Part shown: positions 3,358 through 58,452 of the stretch, one piece after another
How the letters are laid out: each line of letters starts with the position of its first letter
Numbering within the stretch: position 1 is the first letter of the stretch
Assembly: GCA_017798125.1 (NCBI GenBank)
Contig: CP059070.1
Span: 124,001-188,000, forward strand
DNA from: Cryomorphaceae bacterium
GTDB taxonomy: Bacteria; Bacteroidota; Bacteroidia; Flavobacteriales; ECT2AJA-044
Direction: 5' to 3'
DNA length: 64,000 nucleotides
Made by a program: the position numbers and the translations under genes
Notes under the pieces: generated by a model
What the model was told of the DNA's origin: nothing
The model's database searches: none
What the model saw: the letters and a program-made list of their open reading frames with translations, nothing else

Positions 3358-4656
3358 ATGAAGAAAGCTCTATTCTTAGCCATGGCCCTCGTTGGTGCCA
3401 TGACGATTCACGCCCAAACCTATACCCAGACCTATTCCACAGGAGATATTTTTGGGGTTTCACAAGTACAGACAAGCACGGCTCAAGTGAGCCCTTGCCC
3501 CGGAATTCTAACCTTCAGCAATATCCCTGCTGGGGTAAATGTGGATTCTATTCTGGTGGTGTATGACTTCTTCAGCACTTTTGCGGGCTTCCAGAGCCCA
3601 TTTGAACAGCGTTCCTATATCAACTGCCCAACGACCGGTCAAAAGGAAGCTACTTTGGCTCTTGCTCCTCCAACAGGCCCGGGACAAACCACGGTCACCT
3701 ATTCCCGAATACTCAGTGTTGCCAATGGCCCCATCACGGGAAATCTCGTCATTGAATTGCATGCCGGCACGACGGCGCTAATACCTGGATCCTGCACGGG
3801 TTCTGGCCACATTGTCATGAACAACACCTGGAGTGTAACGGTGTACACCAGCGGTTCGGCAGCTTGCCCAAATCCGACGGCCTTGAGCGTGACTCCTACC
3901 ACGAACAGTGCAGACTTTGACTGGACCCCTGGAGGCACTGAAACCACTTGGGAAATTCGTCACGGCTTTGAAGGAAATCCCGTAGCCGGTATGGCCTCCC
4001 AAATCGTAACCAGCCACCCGACTACCATTAGCTCCTTGGACTCGGCGACCTCCTATGATTTCTACGTACGCGCCGCATGTGGAGCTGGAGATACGAGTCA
4101 GTGGAGCGGACCATTTACGGCCATGACCGATACCCCTGTTTGCGCCATGCCCACCGATGGTTTGGTCACCGGAGTAACAGAGACGGAGGCTACAGTCGCC
4201 TGGCAGCAAGGCGGATTCACCACAGACTGGGATTTGGAATACGGCCCTCAGGGCTTCGCCTTAGGCTCGGGCACCATGATTTCAGGAGCTCAAAGTAACC
4301 CCTGGATTTTGCAAGGACTTACGCCCGACACGGACTACGAAGTTTACATTCGAAACAACTGCGTGCTGAACAAATCGGATTGGTTGGGACCGCTCGGGTT
4401 TACGACATTGGACCCGACCGTAGGGCTAACCGAACAGAAAGACCAATTGCGTCTCTATCCCAACCCTGCGAAAGATCGACTCACGGTTGAAACGAACTTC
4501 GAAGATCAATATCAAATCATTGACCCTACGGGTCGATGCGTGCTAAGTGGGCATCTGGCCGTAGGCCAAAATCACATCAACACAGCCAACCTGGCCTCTG
4601 GATGGTACGTATTTCAAAGCAGTACGTCCACCCAACCTGTGTTGATTCAGCCATGA
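3358..4656 (+). CDS. T9SS-sorted secreted protein with two fibronectin type III domains
   Basis: A 432-residue exported protein. A signal peptide covers residues 1-19 (ends AMTIHAQ). An N-terminal domain of about 145 residues is followed by two Fn3-like repeats, each marked by Cys-Pro at the start and a SYDFYVRA or DYEVYIRN strand. The C-terminal ~75 residues form a type A T9SS sorting domain (LYPNPAKDRLTVE, then a GR-V strand and SGWYVF). The family pattern is export by Sec, passage through the type IX secretion system and anchoring or release at the surface. The following lipoprotein overlaps by four bases (ATGA), so the two are probably co-translated. A palindromic GATGC element lies inside the sorting-domain codons. 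Confidence 0.85.
   Translation: MKKALFLAMALVGAMTIHAQTYTQTYSTGDIFGVSQVQTSTAQVSPCPGILTFSNIPAGVNVDSILVVYDFFSTFAGFQSPFEQRSYINCPTTGQKEATLALAPPTGPGQTTVTYSRILSVANGPITGNLVIELHAGTTALIPGSCTGSGHIVMNNTWSVTVYTSGSAACPNPTALSVTPTTNSADFDWTPGGTETTWEIRHGFEGNPVAGMASQIVTSHPTTISSLDSATSYDFYVRAACGAGDTSQWSGPFTAMTDTPVCAMPTDGLVTGVTETEATVAWQQGGFTTDWDLEYGPQGFALGSGTMISGAQSNPWILQGLTPDTDYEVYIRNNCVLNKSDWLGPLGFTTLDPTVGLTEQKDQLRLYPNPAKDRLTVETNFEDQYQIIDPTGRCVLSGHLAVGQNHINTANLASGWYVFQSSTSTQPVLIQP
4522..4539. repeat. GATGC palindromic element, in CDS
   Basis: Stem GACCC, loop TAC, stem GGGTC, then GATGC. It lies in the T9SS sorting-domain codons (DPTGRC). Confidence 0.5.
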
Positions 4657-5225
4657 GAACCATACTTATATTTCTGTCTTTAGTCGGTAGCTCTATTCTG
4701 TTTTCGGGATGCCCGTTGTGCGAATGTCCGGATGTGGTTCCCTACACCCGATGGAACAGCTATCTGATCCGGCCCGATCAAGCCGGGTATCCTGCCGAAG
4801 CGGACTCTTTAAACTTCACCTTGGAGGTGATGGAAATACAGTACTTGGCACAGGCTCAGACCGTACCGAGCTATGGTGGTGACGCAGCTATGGCGTGCTC
4901 TTGTGTGGATGACGGTTGGAATGGTTTCAAATACCCACTTGACAGCGTGGTCTTTCGAACAAGTTCGGACTGGAATGCGAATTTCCCTGCAGGCTCTTCA
5001 CTGGGTGACATCACACAGATCTATACCTACAACGGTGATTGGCAGAATGTCTGGATGGACTTTGAGGACCCCTCGCTAGTCTCGGGAAATAACTACGAAT
5101 ACTTCTATTATTTCCGATTTACCGAGGGCCCAGAAGAAGCCGGCGAATACGAGGTGACTTCCACGATTTACTACAGCAATGGAGCGTCACTTGACGGTCT
5201 TTCCATGACCATGGTGATCCAGTGA
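4653..5225 (+). CDS. Hypothetical lipoprotein
   Basis: A 190-residue protein starting at an ATG that overlaps the previous stop (ATGA). A hydrophobic leader is followed by the lipobox SGC with the lipidated Cys near residue 19, then a cluster of Cys (CPLCEC). The mature part is acidic and rich in Tyr and Trp, and looks beta-rich (EYFYYFRFTEGPEEAGEYEV). I do not recognise a family. Its coupling to the T9SS cargo gene upstream suggests a shared extracytoplasmic role. The same frame is open further upstream, but that stretch is inside the preceding gene and lacks a signal peptide, so the short start is preferred. Confidence 0.7.
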   Translation: MRTILIFLSLVGSSILFSGCPLCECPDVVPYTRWNSYLIRPDQAGYPAEADSLNFTLEVMEIQYLAQAQTVPSYGGDAAMACSCVDDGWNGFKYPLDSVVFRTSSDWNANFPAGSSLGDITQIYTYNGDWQNVWMDFEDPSLVSGNNYEYFYYFRFTEGPEEAGEYEVTSTIYYSNGASLDGLSMTMVIQ

Positions 5226-54235: not shown

Positions 54236-54268
54236 TTTGCAACGGGTCCGACATTAATTCTATCTTTG
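54236..54268 (+). promoter_or_regulatory. Promoter for the PcrB operon
   Basis: TTTG at 54236-54239, 21-base spacer, TATCTTTG at 54261-54268, then the ATG at 54290. Confidence 0.6.
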
Positions 54269-54289
54269 AATTCAACCACGAAATCAACC

Positions 54290-55036
54290 ATGGAAGCCAA
54301 AGTGCTACGTCATCTTAATGCGCGCTCGACGTCAGGTCGCAAGCAACTTGCGGTCTTGGTAGATCCAGACAAGTCCACGCCAAGTTCATTGGCTGAATTG
54401 GGCAACCTGGTGCATCGTGCATCGGTAGAACACATTTTTGTGGGAGGAAGTTTGATGACCAGCGGAGAAATGGAGCAAACGTTGAAGATTCTCCGTGAGA
54501 ACTGCGAAGCGCACTTGACCATTTTCCCCGGGAGTATCAATCAAATCAGCAGTCGGGCCGACGCCCTTTTCTTACTCAGCCTCATCAGTGGACGCAATGC
54601 CGATTTGTTGATCGGGAAGCATGTGGAGGCCGCCCCGTCCTTGAAGCGCAGCGGACTTGAATTAATCCCAACGGGCTATATGCTCGTCGATGGTGGTCAG
54701 CCCACAACAGCCAGTTACATGAGCAACACCTTCCCTATTCCACGCGATAAAGAGGAGATTGCCATGAGTACGGCTATGGCCGGTGAAATGCTAGGGCTTC
54801 AATGCATTTATTTGGATGCCGGATCTGGTGCGCAACATCCGATTCCCGAACCCATGATCGAATGTGTGAAAAATGCAGTGAACATCCCGCTCATTGTCGG
54901 AGGGGGTATGCGTACACAAGAAGATGTGGCTGCAGCCTTGACTGCGGGTGCAGATGTTGCCGTAGTCGGCAATGCTTTTGAGCATAATCCGGAACTCATT
55001 CTTTCCATGGCCGAAACGGTCCATCAATTTGCCTGA
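54290..55036 (+). CDS. Geranylgeranylglyceryl/heptaprenylglyceryl phosphate synthase (PcrB/GGGPS family)
   Basis: A 248-residue TIM-barrel prenyltransferase that couples a polyprenyl diphosphate to glycerol-1-phosphate. The family blocks are present: LAVLVDPDKSTPSSLAELGNLVHRASVEHIFVGGSLMTS, ELIPTGYMLVDGGQPTTASYM, IYLDAGSGAQHPIPEPMIECVKNAVNIPLIVGGGMRTQEDVAAALTAGADVAVVGNAFE. GGGPS-like enzymes occur in many Bacteroidota, though their final lipid is not settled. It is three bases from a thiamine-binding protein gene. Confidence 0.9.
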   Translation: MEAKVLRHLNARSTSGRKQLAVLVDPDKSTPSSLAELGNLVHRASVEHIFVGGSLMTSGEMEQTLKILRENCEAHLTIFPGSINQISSRADALFLLSLISGRNADLLIGKHVEAAPSLKRSGLELIPTGYMLVDGGQPTTASYMSNTFPIPRDKEEIAMSTAMAGEMLGLQCIYLDAGSGAQHPIPEPMIECVKNAVNIPLIVGGGMRTQEDVAAALTAGADVAVVGNAFEHNPELILSMAETVHQFA

Positions 55037-55038
55037 GC

Positions 55039-55302
55039 ATGGATGCCTTAATCGACGTCAGTATGTACCCACTGACCGACGACTTCACACCTCATATTGA
55101 CACCTTTATATACAAGGTCCAAAATCACCCTAATCTCGAGGTTTCGGTTTCAGACACCTCAACGACCATAAGAGGGCCGTACGATACCGTCATGTCCGTT
55201 GTCACGGAAGCGATGAAGGAAAGCCTCAGTAGCGTACCCTGCACCTTTAATCTGCGCATTCTCGGCGGTCAGACGGCAAACGTTGAAAACAAACATCGCT
55301 AA
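55039..55302 (+). CDS. YkoF/MTH1187-type thiamine-binding domain protein
   Basis: An 87-residue alpha-beta protein. It matches the YkoF/MTH1187 (DUF77-type) pattern: MDALIDVSMYPLTDDFTPHIDTFIYKVQNHPNLEVSVSDTSTTIRGPYDTVMSVVTEAM. Such proteins bind thiamine or an HMP moiety and are often near thiamine transport genes. It sits three bases after the PcrB gene and overlaps a NadR-like kinase by one base. A TPP riboswitch with a TonB receptor lies about 560 bases downstream, which supports the thiamine reading. Confidence 0.75.
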   Translation: MDALIDVSMYPLTDDFTPHIDTFIYKVQNHPNLEVSVSDTSTTIRGPYDTVMSVVTEAMKESLSSVPCTFNLRILGGQTANVENKHR

Positions 55303-55823
55303 TGCCATTGCGGATCTCTGTCACGGGTCCGGAATCCACCGGAAAAAGCCACTTAAGCCATCACCTAGCCGACAAGCTGGGACTGGGTTGGGTCCCGGAG
55401 GTTGCCCGATCGTATTTAAATGAACTAGGGCGTCCCTATGAAGAGCAGGACCTCAGCGAAATCCTCCGAGAGCAACTGGCTTTGGAAAACGAAACGCTCC
55501 AACACTTTCCCAAGGGATTGGTGTCAGACACAGATCCGCTAGTCCTAGAAGTTTGGAGCGAATTCAAGTATGGTCGCGTTGACTCCGCAATACATGAAAC
55601 CGTGCTGGGTCATCGCTACGACCATTACCTCATTTGTGATGTCGACCTACCCTGGGAACCCGATCCATTGCGCGAACACCCCGACCAGCGCAAGGAACTA
55701 CTCGATATCTACATTGCTAAATGCGAGTCTTACCAATTTCCCTACACCCTCATTTCGGGGGAAGGTGATGCCCGAATCTTAGCCGCTCAAGCAGCTGTCA
55801 CTCATCTTATCGATCAACTCTAG
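55302..55823 (+). CDS. NadR-like P-loop kinase
   Basis: A 173-residue kinase. Walker A is GPESTGKS (residues 9-16). The motif VPEVARSYLNELGRPYEEQDLSEILREQLALE, then LVSDTDPLVLEVWSEFKYG and DLPWEPDPLREHPDQRKELLDIY, match the kinase domain of NadR/Ttd14. Nicotinamide riboside is the standard substrate, but no pnuC is adjacent. Because it is co-translated with a thiamine-binding protein and precedes a TPP-riboswitch gene, phosphorylation of thiamine or a precursor is an alternative I consider plausible. Confidence 0.8.
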   Translation: MPLRISVTGPESTGKSHLSHHLADKLGLGWVPEVARSYLNELGRPYEEQDLSEILREQLALENETLQHFPKGLVSDTDPLVLEVWSEFKYGRVDSAIHETVLGHRYDHYLICDVDLPWEPDPLREHPDQRKELLDIYIAKCESYQFPYTLISGEGDARILAAQAAVTHLIDQL

Positions 55824-55845
55824 AACTCTAGATTGATTTTTCAGT

Positions 55846-55853
55846 TACCTTTG
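55846..55853 (+). promoter_or_regulatory. Probable -7 element for the riboswitch transcript
   Basis: TACCTTTG, matching TAnnTTTG, a few bases upstream of the riboswitch. The -33 box is not clear. Confidence 0.5.
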
Positions 55854-55860
55854 CTGCGTC

Positions 55861-55948
55861 TCAAAAGGGGTGCCCTACGCTTCGGCGCGATGGGCTGAGA
55901 TCATACCCAATGAACCTGGGCGGGTCATGCCGCCAAGGGAAATTTTAA
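55861..55948 (+). promoter_or_regulatory. TPP riboswitch (THI element)
   Basis: Conserved blocks in order: GGGGTGCCC (55867-), GGGCTGAGATCATACCC, AATGAACCTG, and GTCATGCC...AAGGGAAA. The P3 arm carries a short hairpin. It covers the leader of the TonB receptor, whose start is at 55996. TPP binding would normally reduce its expression. An open frame running in from upstream (from 55870) crosses the riboswitch and is not a real N-terminus. Confidence 0.93.
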
Positions 55949-55995
55949 CCACAACACCAGCGAGTCACCCCTTTCTCGTGATTAAAGTCTTAATC

Positions 55996-58452
55996 ATGCA
56001 GAAATTTATTTCGACTGCTGTGTTCTTCCTGATTTGCGCCATTGGCGCCACTGCTCAGGACGTCACCAACATTCAAGGTCGCGTCATCGACGCACAAACC
56101 CGCGAAGGCCTACCCTACGCCAATGTCTCCTTTGGAGGGATTTCCATGGGACCAGGCGTTAGCGCTGATGCCCAAGGATATTTCGAACTCGAGATGGCCT
56201 CCGAGGGCGCTGCCAATTTCGAAGTCACCTATGTCGGCTATCGATCCCAGTTCGTTTCCGTCACCTTGGACGGTCCTTCCAAGTCCGTAACGGTCGCCAT
56301 GGAGCGCGCGACAGAGGAAATCGCTGAAGTTGTCGTAGAGGCCCTACGGGCCGATGACGATGCTCCCGTCGCCTACACCAACGTCACCAAAAAGGAAATC
56401 CAAGAGGTCAATCTGGGCCAGGATCTACCCATGCTATTGGACCAGACCGCCAGCGTCGTTACGAGTTCAGATGCAGGTGCGGGTATTGGTTACACGAACA
56501 TGCGTATCCGAGGAACGGACCAAACACGCATTAACGTCACCGTAAATGGCATCCCCATCAATGATTCAGAGTCCCAAGGAGTCTTTTGGGTCAACATGCC
56601 AGACCTGAGCTCCAGCACCTCGAGTATTCAGATTCAGCGCGGGGTGGGAACCTCGACCAACGGTGCGGCGGCTTTTGGTGCCACGGTCAACTTGAACACC
56701 GACGTTTTCAACGCCGACCCTTATGCCAACCTCACCATTGGCGGTGGAAGCTTCAACACCCTCAAACGCAATTTGGAATTCGGAACCGGACTCATCGGTG
56801 ATCGTTTCATGGTCGAGGGGCGCTTATCGCACATTACCTCGGATGGCTACATCGACCGGGCCAGTAGCAACCTACGGAGTTACTACTTCAATGCCGGATA
56901 CTACGGCGACAAAACCACGCTGAAGTTCATCACTTTTGCCGGTCGCGAACGTACTTACCAAAGCTGGTGGGGTACTCCTCAAAGCCGCTTAGAAGATGAC
57001 TCCACAGGAATGTACAACCACGCCATCAACAACGGCCTCGATTCGGCTCAGACATACAACCTATTCAACAGCGGGCGTACCTATAACTTCTACGAGTACG
57101 AAGACCAAGTAGACAACTACGGTCAAGATCACTATCAATTACACTGGACCCGGCGTGTTAGCGAATCTTTCAAGGCAAAAGCTGCCCTCCATTATACACG
57201 CGGAGAAGGGTACTTTGAAGAGTTCAGAGCGGGTGAGGACTACGGGGACTACGGACTTGAGAATCCCGTCATAGGCGCGGACACCCTGACTTCAACCGAC
57301 CTTGTTCGCCGTCGTTGGTTGGACAATGACTTCTATGGTATTACTTTCTCCATGGATTACAACGGTCGCGACTTGGATGTGATTGTAGGTGGGGGATGGA
57401 ATAGATATGAAGGACTTCACTACGGTGAAATCATCTGGATGGAAAACGCCTTTGACACTCCCAAGGACTTCCGCTACTACGAAGGAGACGCCGTTAAAAC
57501 CGACGGTAATCTCTTTGTGAAGGCCACCTACGACTTGCGTTCATTCCGTTTTTACGGAGACCTTCAGGTGCGAAGCATTTCCTATGAAACGGCTGGTACG
57601 GACAATGATTTGGTCAATTACGATGTGGATGCCAATTTCAACTTCTTCAACCCAAAGTTTGGATTCACGTATTTCTTGAGCAATCGCCAACAGGTTTATG
57701 CGAGTTTTGCCATGGCGGGTCGTGAGCCTGTTCGAAATGACTTTATCGATGCACTCGATGGAGAAGTTCCCACGGCTGAAACCTTGATGGACTACGAAGT
57801 AGGATACCGATTCCAGGGGCAGAACTTGGCCTTTGAGGCCAACGGGTACTTCATGGATTACACCGATCAGCTAGTCGTCACCGGGGAGTTGAATGACGTG
57901 GGCTCCAACATCCGAACCAATGTAGTGGAAAGCTATCGAGCGGGAATTGAATTGAACATCAGCTACGCCATTACACCTGCAGTGACCTTGGGCGGAAACT
58001 GGGCTCTGTCTCAAAACAAAATCGCCAACTTCTCGGAAACCATCTACGACTACACCAATGGGTTCGACGTCATTGTGAACGAGTATGAGGATACAGACAT
58101 CGCCTTGAGCCCAAACTCGGTCGGTGCTGTATACGTGGAATATAGTCCCGCTGAACGTGCGCTTATTCGCCTTCAAGGAAAGTACGTTGGACAACAGTTC
58201 TTGGACAACACCTCCAATGAGAACAGGATCATTGAGTCCTTCTTTGTGGCGGACTTGGTAGCCGGTTACACCTTTGAACCGAAAGGAATCGAAGGTATTG
58301 ATGTACAGCTAAAGGTGAACAACCTATTCAATACCCTATACAGCACTTTTGGTTATACCTATAGCTATGTTGTCGGCGACATGATCACGGAGAATTTTTA
58401 TTATCCCCAGGCCACGATTAACTTCTTAGGACAGATTACGGTCAGACTCTGA
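55996..58452 (+). CDS. TPP-riboswitch-controlled TonB-dependent receptor (probable thiamine receptor)
   Basis: An 818-residue receptor starting at the ATG at 55996, which gives the signal peptide ending ATAQ. A carboxypeptidase-regulatory domain (about 25-110, GRVIDAQTREGLPYANVSFGGISMGPGVSADAQGYFELEM) precedes the plug (about 130-240, SSDAGAGIGYTNMRIRGTDQTRINVTVNGIPIND) and a C-terminal barrel ending in aromatic strands (FYYPQATINFLGQITVRL). The riboswitch upstream makes it a likely outer-membrane receptor for thiamine or a precursor. An inner-membrane partner such as PnuT is not seen here. An exact GATG palindromic element lies in the codons for EALRADD. Confidence 0.9.
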   Translation: MQKFISTAVFFLICAIGATAQDVTNIQGRVIDAQTREGLPYANVSFGGISMGPGVSADAQGYFELEMASEGAANFEVTYVGYRSQFVSVTLDGPSKSVTVAMERATEEIAEVVVEALRADDDAPVAYTNVTKKEIQEVNLGQDLPMLLDQTASVVTSSDAGAGIGYTNMRIRGTDQTRINVTVNGIPINDSESQGVFWVNMPDLSSSTSSIQIQRGVGTSTNGAAAFGATVNLNTDVFNADPYANLTIGGGSFNTLKRNLEFGTGLIGDRFMVEGRLSHITSDGYIDRASSNLRSYYFNAGYYGDKTTLKFITFAGRERTYQSWWGTPQSRLEDDSTGMYNHAINNGLDSAQTYNLFNSGRTYNFYEYEDQVDNYGQDHYQLHWTRRVSESFKAKAALHYTRGEGYFEEFRAGEDYGDYGLENPVIGADTLTSTDLVRRRWLDNDFYGITFSMDYNGRDLDVIVGGGWNRYEGLHYGEIIWMENAFDTPKDFRYYEGDAVKTDGNLFVKATYDLRSFRFYGDLQVRSISYETAGTDNDLVNYDVDANFNFFNPKFGFTYFLSNRQQVYASFAMAGREPVRNDFIDALDGEVPTAETLMDYEVGYRFQGQNLAFEANGYFMDYTDQLVVTGELNDVGSNIRTNVVESYRAGIELNISYAITPAVTLGGNWALSQNKIANFSETIYDYTNGFDVIVNEYEDTDIALSPNSVGAVYVEYSPAERALIRLQGKYVGQQFLDNTSNENRIIESFFVADLVAGYTFEPKGIEGIDVQLKVNNLFNTLYSTFGYTYSYVVGDMITENFYYPQATINFLGQITVRL
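56340..56356. repeat. GATG palindromic element, exact copy inside the TonB gene
   Basis: GGCCCTACGGGCCGATG, the inverted form of the copies at 8441, 16732 and 52829. In frame it codes for ALRAD. Confidence 0.6.

Follow-up and report, generated by a model that had tools for sequence, protein, structure and literature searches.

The 64,000-nucleotide stretch of DNA analyzed here (the window; G000:C1:124001-188000, from a Cryomorphaceae bacterium whose 2.84-Mb genome is a single contig) carries on its plus strand a run consisting, in order, of pcrB, a YkoF/Thiamine_BP-like open reading frame (ORF), a kinase, a thiamine pyrophosphate (TPP) riboswitch aptamer, and a TonB-dependent receptor (54266-58452; Table 1). 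The YkoF-like and kinase ORFs overlap by one base, the last A of TAA being the A of ATG. The receptor has plug and barrel domains preceded by an N-terminal carboxypeptidase-regulatory-like domain. The mechanically called ORF begins with GTG (55870), a position inside the riboswitch, and the likely start of the receptor is therefore ATG 55996. The original prediction for this locus, made from the sequence alone, had described a riboswitch and receptor for thiamine uptake preceded by a YkoF-type thiamine-binding protein and a NadR-like kinase, with the usual inner-membrane partner absent. The riboswitch, the receptor, the kinase, and the one-base overlap all hold up, the YkoF-like ORF falls slightly below the Pfam cut-offs, and the claim of an absent partner is incorrect, as a PnuC-family gene is present elsewhere in the genome.

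Table 1. Features of the kinase locus (positions counted from the first base of the window).
Feature	Position	Strand	Evidence
pcrB-type prenylglyceryl phosphate synthase, first in run	54266..55036	+	PF01884 131.5 bits, NF003198 270.7 bits
YkoF/MTH1187-like small protein, 87 aa, possible thiamine binder	55039..55302	+	PF01910 24.2 bits, PF07615 20.6 bits
NadR-type P-loop kinase, 173 aa, proposed thiamine kinase	55302..55823	+	AAA_28 97.8 bits
TPP riboswitch aptamer, leader of receptor gene	55856..55959	+	RF00059 43.1 bits
Possible anti-aptamer helix, 5' arm AAAGGGGTG, within aptamer	55864..55872	+	Exact 9-nt complement at 55966-55974
Possible anti-aptamer helix, 3' arm CACCCCTTT	55966..55974	+	Complement of 55864-55872
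9-bp hairpin, 3' arm holds receptor ATG (55996-55998)	55977..55998	+	54/54 cells paired, 6 leaders
TonB-dependent outer-membrane receptor, proposed for thiamine	55996..58452	+	PF00593 80.8 bits, PF07715 42.3 bits, PF13715 56.3 bits

The kinase aligns to the NadR model TIGR01526 over the kinase half alone (profile positions 164 to 319; 60.7 bits, where the cut-off is 341), the protein lacks the adenylyltransferase domain that NadR has, and a Pfam search at E ≤ 1 recovered no match to thiamine pyrophosphokinase (TPK) or APH. Its AlphaFold2 model (pLDDT 96.1) has NadR 8x7f as its best PDB match (Z 22.2, rmsd 1.9 over 172 residues, 21% identity), followed by thymidylate kinases at Z ≤ 17.2. The likeness to NadR (TIGR01526; PDB 8x7f, 1lw7, and 6gye) extends over the whole length of the fold and includes the Walker A motif, E33, R36, D76 of the DT motif, D121, and the lid arginine R124. 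The lid residue that follows D121, in contrast, is glycine in all 7 NadR rows of our alignment and proline, aspartate, or glutamate in 109 of 121 solo kinases, and W85 is found in 103 of the 121 solo kinases, where the 7 NadR rows have tyrosine or phenylalanine. Because the adenylyltransferase domain is absent and a lid residue differs, the window protein is a NadR-type kinase rather than NadR; the lid change, as a sequence difference, fits an altered substrate without proving one. We kept the discussion of substrate residues to this comparison of conservation and make no pocket argument, since the residue assignments in excerpts of PMC13256911 rest on docking and excerpts of PMC7221760, on L. 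lactis NadR, report no substrate in the kinase site.

A match to the kinase is present in 163 of the 296 genomes of the order (the weakest at an E value of about 1e-5), and a tblastn search with the kinase against plasmids recovered 8 records, all at ≤60% identity. The surroundings of the kinase recur. At 30 loci of the order, inspected over 1.5 kb on each side with profiles seeded by the proteins of the window and of locus L002, the genes found upstream on the same strand were pcrB (25 loci), the YkoF-like gene (16 loci), and pnuC (18 loci), while a receptor lay downstream on the same strand in 17 and on the opposite strand in 2. The order pcrB-ykoF-pnuC-kinase, where the genes are present, was kept at all 30 loci, with all three upstream genes at 7 of them, and a TPP match was found in 17 of 20 order loci scanned under permissive Rfam settings (36.7 to 58.9 bits). 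Among the best 80 of at least 154 loci from named relatives, 50 have pnuC on the same strand at a distance of up to 300 bp, 19 have the YkoF-like gene within 1.5 kb, and 7 have pcrB upstream of the kinase; an aptamer was identified in 38 of the 80, or 36 of the 68 with at least 3 kb of downstream sequence, using a model built from 20 such aptamers, four of them in loci that were searched again (L036, L037, L049, and L059). Fisher tests on these named loci (7.7e-8 and 3.8e-4) ignore shared descent and hand-picking and are not relied on. At L089 the aptamer stands directly before pnuC-kinase, and at L065 and L138-L140 directly before pnuC. The latter three loci (in G153, G028, and G210, all TPK bearing) continue from aptamer and pnuC into an acyl-CoA-dehydrogenase-like gene with weak Pfam matches.

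For a neutral count we searched for RF00059 in a panel of 69 genomes, of which 53 bear the kinase (mostly one per genus) and 16 lack it or match it weakly. A match at E ≤ 0.01 was found in 65, with 24 above the gathering score. In 30 of the 53 kinase-bearing genomes the distance from the kinase to the nearest TPP match is at most 3 kb, and in 39 it is at most 10 kb; 37 of these 39 matches are downstream of the kinase on the same strand. Because these genomes of 1.6 to 5.4 Mb mostly contain only one to three TPP matches each, the linkage between kinase and TPP riboswitch is far above chance.

The inner-membrane carrier of the window genome was found by the search for pnuT or pnuC that the original prediction had proposed. 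It returned a single PF04973 gene (G000:C1:120192-120725, minus strand; 190.5 bits, over the cut-off), 59 kb upstream of the kinase and 3.3 kb beyond the window, and aptamer scans found no aptamer beside it. The protein belongs to the same family as the PnuC of 4QTN (E value of 2.9e-10), which is named for nicotinamide riboside, but it clusters with aptamer-linked members: in a PnuC tree of 114 rows, made by a quick method and with numerous long branches, the window genome's copy and that of its congener G013 fall in a 63-row set (SH-aLRT 99) that includes 21 aptamer-linked rows and no NadR-linked row. We infer that this gene is the relocated PnuT of the operon. L139, labeled otherwise in the PnuC tree, also bears an aptamer. 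In the kinase and PnuC trees alike, L139, L157, L158, and L160 are labeled aptamer free despite their aptamers, and the aptamer-group counts are thus too low.

A competing explanation is that the enzyme remains a nicotinamide riboside kinase, with PnuC importing nicotinamide riboside, the kinase making nicotinamide mononucleotide, and the riboswitch serving the next gene alone. Its nearest solved relatives are NadR kinase domains, with which it has the catalytic residues in common (Walker A, E33, R36, D76, and R124), and PnuC-family genes are frequent neighbors; indeed, the original prediction had named conservation of the kinase beside pnuC as something that would refute a thiamine role, and the 50 named loci reported above literally show this adjacency. 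We do not take it as a refutation, because many such pnuC genes are in TPP-aptamer loci and the window genome's own copy groups with them, and because the pairs of PnuC with the two-domain NadR stand apart as a set of their own, where scans found no aptamer. When eight NadR-like proteins were compared with TIGR01526, five matched over both halves (L142-L145 and L147; 163 to 241 bits, all below the cut-off of 341), L146 and L149 matched in the kinase half alone, and the match of L150 began at profile position 127. Four of the five two-half proteins adjoin pnuC, and none of the nine NadR-like loci scanned (L142-L150; 4.4 to 4.5 kb each) contained an aptamer. Three genomes (G424, G339, and G359) hold a two-domain NadR besides the solo kinase, and two of these NadR genes adjoin pnuC. 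A kinase-domain tree of 130 rows places the NadR-like rows (a group that in both trees takes in L146, L149, and L150, whose TIGR01526 matches fall wholly or largely in the kinase half, and L148, unscanned with that profile) outside or basal to the solo kinases, among which aptamer-linked and unlinked members are interleaved; 59 of its 127 inner branches are weakly supported. Together with the missing adenylyltransferase domain, the lid difference, and a near-exclusive pattern with TPK that this explanation leaves unaccounted for, the aptamer-free NadR-like loci and the genomes that hold both a two-domain NadR and the solo kinase make a nicotinamide riboside kinase unlikely.

That pattern emerged from profiles of the thiamine enzymes. 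The window genome has no match to TPK (PF04263, E ≤ 0.001), ThiC, or ThiE and encodes a full ThiL (315.7 bits), a pattern seen in 40 of the 53 kinase-bearing panel genomes. Across the panel, TPK is present in 3 of 53 kinase-bearing genomes versus 12 of the 16 others, ThiC in 6 of 53 versus 9 of 16, ThiE (E ≤ 0.001) in 13 of 53 versus 12 of 16, and ThiL, over its cut-off, in all 53 and in 14 of 16. Among the 44 panel genomes without ThiE, 40 have the kinase without TPK, three have TPK without the kinase (G054, G026, and G153, the last with a weak kinase match at an E value of 3.5e-5), none has both, and only the 0.3-Mb G015 has neither; the remaining genomes with neither enzyme (G009, G011, and G012) all have ThiE. 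In a second draw of 158 genomes of the phylum, which partly overlaps the panel and in which the kinase-less genomes are partly listed, 35 carry the solo kinase (best match >145 bits), all in the window's class, and 30 of these lack TPK. The five that have it all belong to genus g3, which is Flavobacterium-like by the kinase tree, and TPK is present in all five listed members of the class without a kinase match. Six genomes outside the class have weaker kinase matches in longer ORFs and no TPK; these are two-domain NadR in G307, G324, and, by likeness, G411, and the kinase half only in G320, G414, and, for the most part, G380. Among some pnuC neighbors scanned in TPK-bearing genomes we found no pnuC-TPK pair, the neighbors being unassigned ORFs, DAP epimerase, phosphopantetheinyl-transferase-like ORFs, or others.

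Since the genes recur in relatives in a single order, where pnuC separates ykoF from the kinase, we interpret the window locus as a thiamine-salvage operon of Bacteroidota that has been split in this genome and in which the NadR-type kinase makes thiamine monophosphate (TMP) from thiamine. We place the probability of this reading at roughly 0.72, and that of the thiamine kinase activity itself, for which the grounds are genome context, likewise at a little under three in four. Under this interpretation the TonB receptor, whose expression the TPP riboswitch in its leader would govern, would admit thiamine across the outer membrane, and the PnuT-like carrier, whose gene lies 59 kb away, would move it across the inner membrane; the YkoF-like protein may bind thiamine in the cytoplasm, and the kinase would trap it by transferring one ATP phosphate onto the hydroxyethyl group, yielding TMP. 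ThiL would then convert TMP to TPP, which would in turn act on the riboswitch. The NadR-type kinase would thereby stand in for thiamine pyrophosphokinase (ThiN/Tnr3) or ThiK. The original suggestion that the kinase acts on thiamine thus receives indirect support, from the TPP riboswitch linkage, the PnuT-like carriers, and the near-exclusive pattern with TPK, while the substrate itself is a matter of inference. Without ThiE, the TMP that ThiL needs can come from thiamine and a kinase, or from outside.

Several observations weigh against this interpretation. The carrier of the window genome lies outside the gene run, and the riboswitch, being 3' of the kinase, may not control it. Fifteen of the 80 named loci, some of them cut by contig ends, have neither an adjacent pnuC nor an aptamer, and 14 of the 53 kinase-bearing panel genomes have no TPP match within 10 kb (10 have theirs solely on another contig and one has none). 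Kinase and TPK occur together in six genomes (G002, G045, G245, G017, G053, and G095, all but G245 in genus g3), so the kinase is not the only route in every genome that has it. ThiL is retained in the ThiE-less, TPK-bearing G054 and G153, and for that reason ThiL alone is weak evidence for a TMP-forming kinase. The panel counts are also not independent by descent, as 27 of the 53 kinase-bearing genomes belong to one family and 8 of the 16 others to genus g5, and those 16 were hand-picked for completeness from 20 listed kinase-lacking genomes (133 have no match) and from the weakest hits. Finally, the search for thiamine enzymes in these genomes was confined to TPK, ThiC, ThiE, and ThiL.

Other substrates and products were also weighed. 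Bacillus YkoF is linked to hydroxymethylpyrimidine (HMP) uptake, and a riboswitch and transporter suit any vitamin B1 vitamer, so that the kinase might phosphorylate HMP or another thiamine breakdown product instead of intact thiamine. An HMP substrate makes little sense, however, because ThiE is missing: 40 of the 53 kinase-bearing genomes, including that of the window, have no ThiE match and so lack the known route for coupling phosphorylated HMP to thiazole. We accordingly regard this possibility as less probable than a nicotinamide riboside kinase. More doubtful still is that the kinase makes TPP from thiamine in one step, as a direct counterpart of the TPK that it seems to replace; NadR- and thymidylate-kinase-type folds are known as single-phosphate kinases, and ThiL accompanies the kinase in every kinase-bearing genome of the panel, though TPK-bearing auxotrophs also retain it. 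Equally doubtful is that the kinase is an operon bystander or regulator while an unrecognized enzyme elsewhere phosphorylates thiamine, for although pcrB, with no known thiamine role, neighbors the kinase at most of the order loci, so that neighborhood alone proves little, and some genomes have no aptamer nearby, the complementarity with TPK and the conserved catalytic residues indicate an enzyme in that role.

The finding is not merely a single-genome curiosity, for the locus appears to be a split version of a salvage operon that is widespread and in which a NadR-type kinase probably does the job of TPK. With somewhat better than even confidence, we propose that the solo NadR-type kinase is the thiamine kinase of most Flavobacteriales (the window's order, judging by its named relatives) and also of numerous other Bacteroidota, and that it has replaced TPK in entire families. 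Together with ThiL it would provide a two-step salvage from thiamine to TMP to TPP in B1 auxotrophs, nicotinamide riboside and thiamine kinases would be sister enzymes, each with its own PnuC-family carrier, and the YkoF-like protein would hand thiamine to the kinase. The activation of scavenged thiamine is a gap in the metabolic maps of these bacteria, given that 47 of the 53 kinase-bearing genomes lack ThiC and 50 lack TPK. A NadR-type thiamine kinase, if confirmed, would close it by converting scavenged B1 to its active form without the usual enzyme, would give a function to a gene that profiles place solely in a general AAA domain family, and would sharpen predictions of which organism needs which B1 vitamer. 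It would also mean that the PnuC carrier family and one kinase fold have been redeployed jointly for another vitamin.

Thiamine phosphorylation by ATP has also been assigned to ThiK (YcfN) and ThiN/TPK (PF04263), and it is in this proposed reaction that the window kinase resembles them. ThiK has an aminoglycoside-phosphotransferase-like domain, and the window kinase, with no TPK or APH match, belongs to a different family from both. The closest parallel in gene content is in Bacteroides, where, according to excerpts of PMC5613172, TPP regulates the uptake genes OMthi and pnuT-tnr3, and PnuT transports thiamine when expressed in E. coli; the two systems have in common a TPP riboswitch, an outer-membrane receptor, a PnuC-family carrier, and a thiamine enzyme beside the carrier, but the enzyme there is Tnr3 (named thiamine pyrophosphorylase in the same excerpts), whereas here it is a NadR-type kinase with a YkoF-like gene. 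In parts of a gut-genome reconstruction, ThiL or ThiN catalyzes the final step, PnuT is among the thiamine carriers, and NadR is assigned to nicotinamide riboside (PMC6593275, excerpts). Excerpts of two environmental studies report that Baltic Bacteroidetes mainly expressed omr1 and pnuC, along with genes for thiazole and B1 synthesis and none for HMP synthesis (PMC12442306), and that aquatic bacterioplankton are mostly unable to synthesize vitamin B1 (PMC10881298). The open-licence PMC literature, in the excerpts available, names no NadR-type thiamine kinase, and an earlier prediction in subscription papers, RegPrecise, or SEED is possible.

The riboswitch at this locus is the sole RF00059 match in the genome (E value of 4.4e-7 genome-wide), scores below the gathering score of 54.3, and goes unlisted in a default Rfam scan. 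Its alignment covers the full model (positions 1 to 105) and preserves the core letters. Of the 65 panel genomes in which RF00059 was found, 41 likewise fall below the gathering score, and the congener G013 has a TPP match at the same place (36.7 bits). Our own aptamer model, R1, scores the window at 79.7 bits, the window copy being among the 20 used in building it. A false positive, considered on account of the default scan, was ruled out by the genome-wide and permissive scans and by recurrence in relatives. As separate observations, L160 contains tandem TPP aptamer matches (positions 4555-4750; 33.6 and 25.5 bits) between the kinase and the TonB receptor, and in L070, on a contig labeled as a gammaproteobacterial metagenome-assembled genome, a TPP aptamer-TonB-ykoF-pnuC arrangement is divergent from the kinase, the non-Bacteroidota label reflecting either transfer or a binning error.

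Downstream of the aptamer the leader has further candidate structure. The minimum-energy fold of 55850-56010 (z of -2.3) adopts an alternative pairing of AAAGGGGTG (55864-55872) with CACCCCTTT (55966-55974); when the downstream 90 nt were shuffled by mononucleotide, one shuffle in 200 reached a 9-nt complement. Over 51 leaders, the longest exact downstream complement averages 5.6 nt compared to 4.6 in mononucleotide shuffles, so that only the window, its congener, and a number of relatives have a clear anti-aptamer complement. The hairpin around the start codon was compared in six leaders hand-picked for mutual likeness (the window, L004, L007, L008, L011, and L028), where every cell is paired and two pairs are altered on both sides. 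Its both-side-changed cells and covariation score exceed those of all 500 shuffles, and slid versions pair at most 57% of cells, while the number of both-side-changed pairs is equaled by 199 of 500 shuffles. A smaller, less certain hairpin lies 5' of it, with a loop that bears the C-rich anti-aptamer strand; it is indistinguishable from shuffles and overlaps bases of the lower stem of the start-codon hairpin. The simple reading, in which TPP would free the C-rich strand, does not obviously fit the shut-off expected of this riboswitch.

The YkoF-like ORF scores just under the Pfam cut-offs (24.9 for PF01910 and 21 for PF07615), 5 of 10 tested relatives exceed one of the two, and its PDB matches are weak (1lxj, E value of 0.03; YkoF 1s7h, E value of 0.35). 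Its likeness to the YkoF and MTH1187 thiamine-binding proteins is a short domain match; compared with these, the window protein is a single domain of 87 residues with sub-cut-off scores and an unmatched C-terminal part. The pcrB gene is probably a housekeeping neighbor outside thiamine metabolism.

A DUF4301 gene accompanies the kinase in several relatives. The two are fused in one ORF in L024, L027, L029, L079, L091, and L103 (PF14134, 624 bits in L024), and DUF4301 is the next gene after the kinase in L083, L088, L094, L100, L104-L106, L108, and L110-L112. At L114 (in G059, of genus g3, with TPK and no kinase match) the arrangement is pcrB-pnuC-DUF4301 with no kinase in between. The predicted structure of DUF4301 (pLDDT 81.9) is nearest to UDP-glucose and UDP-GlcNAc pyrophosphorylases (best E value of 1.4e-9; TM of about 0.33 to 0.5), and by this modeled fold the domain is probably nucleotidyltransferase-like. 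In six genomes (G237, G097, G131, G210, G046, and G092) a sub-cut-off ThiE-like gene adjoins a second, low-scoring ThiL-like gene; except in G131, a TPP match that exceeds the gathering score lies no more than about 2 kb away. The neighborhood of the Mongoliibacter locus L036 additionally contains a fluoride riboswitch (RF01734, 55.3 bits; positions 2896-2963).

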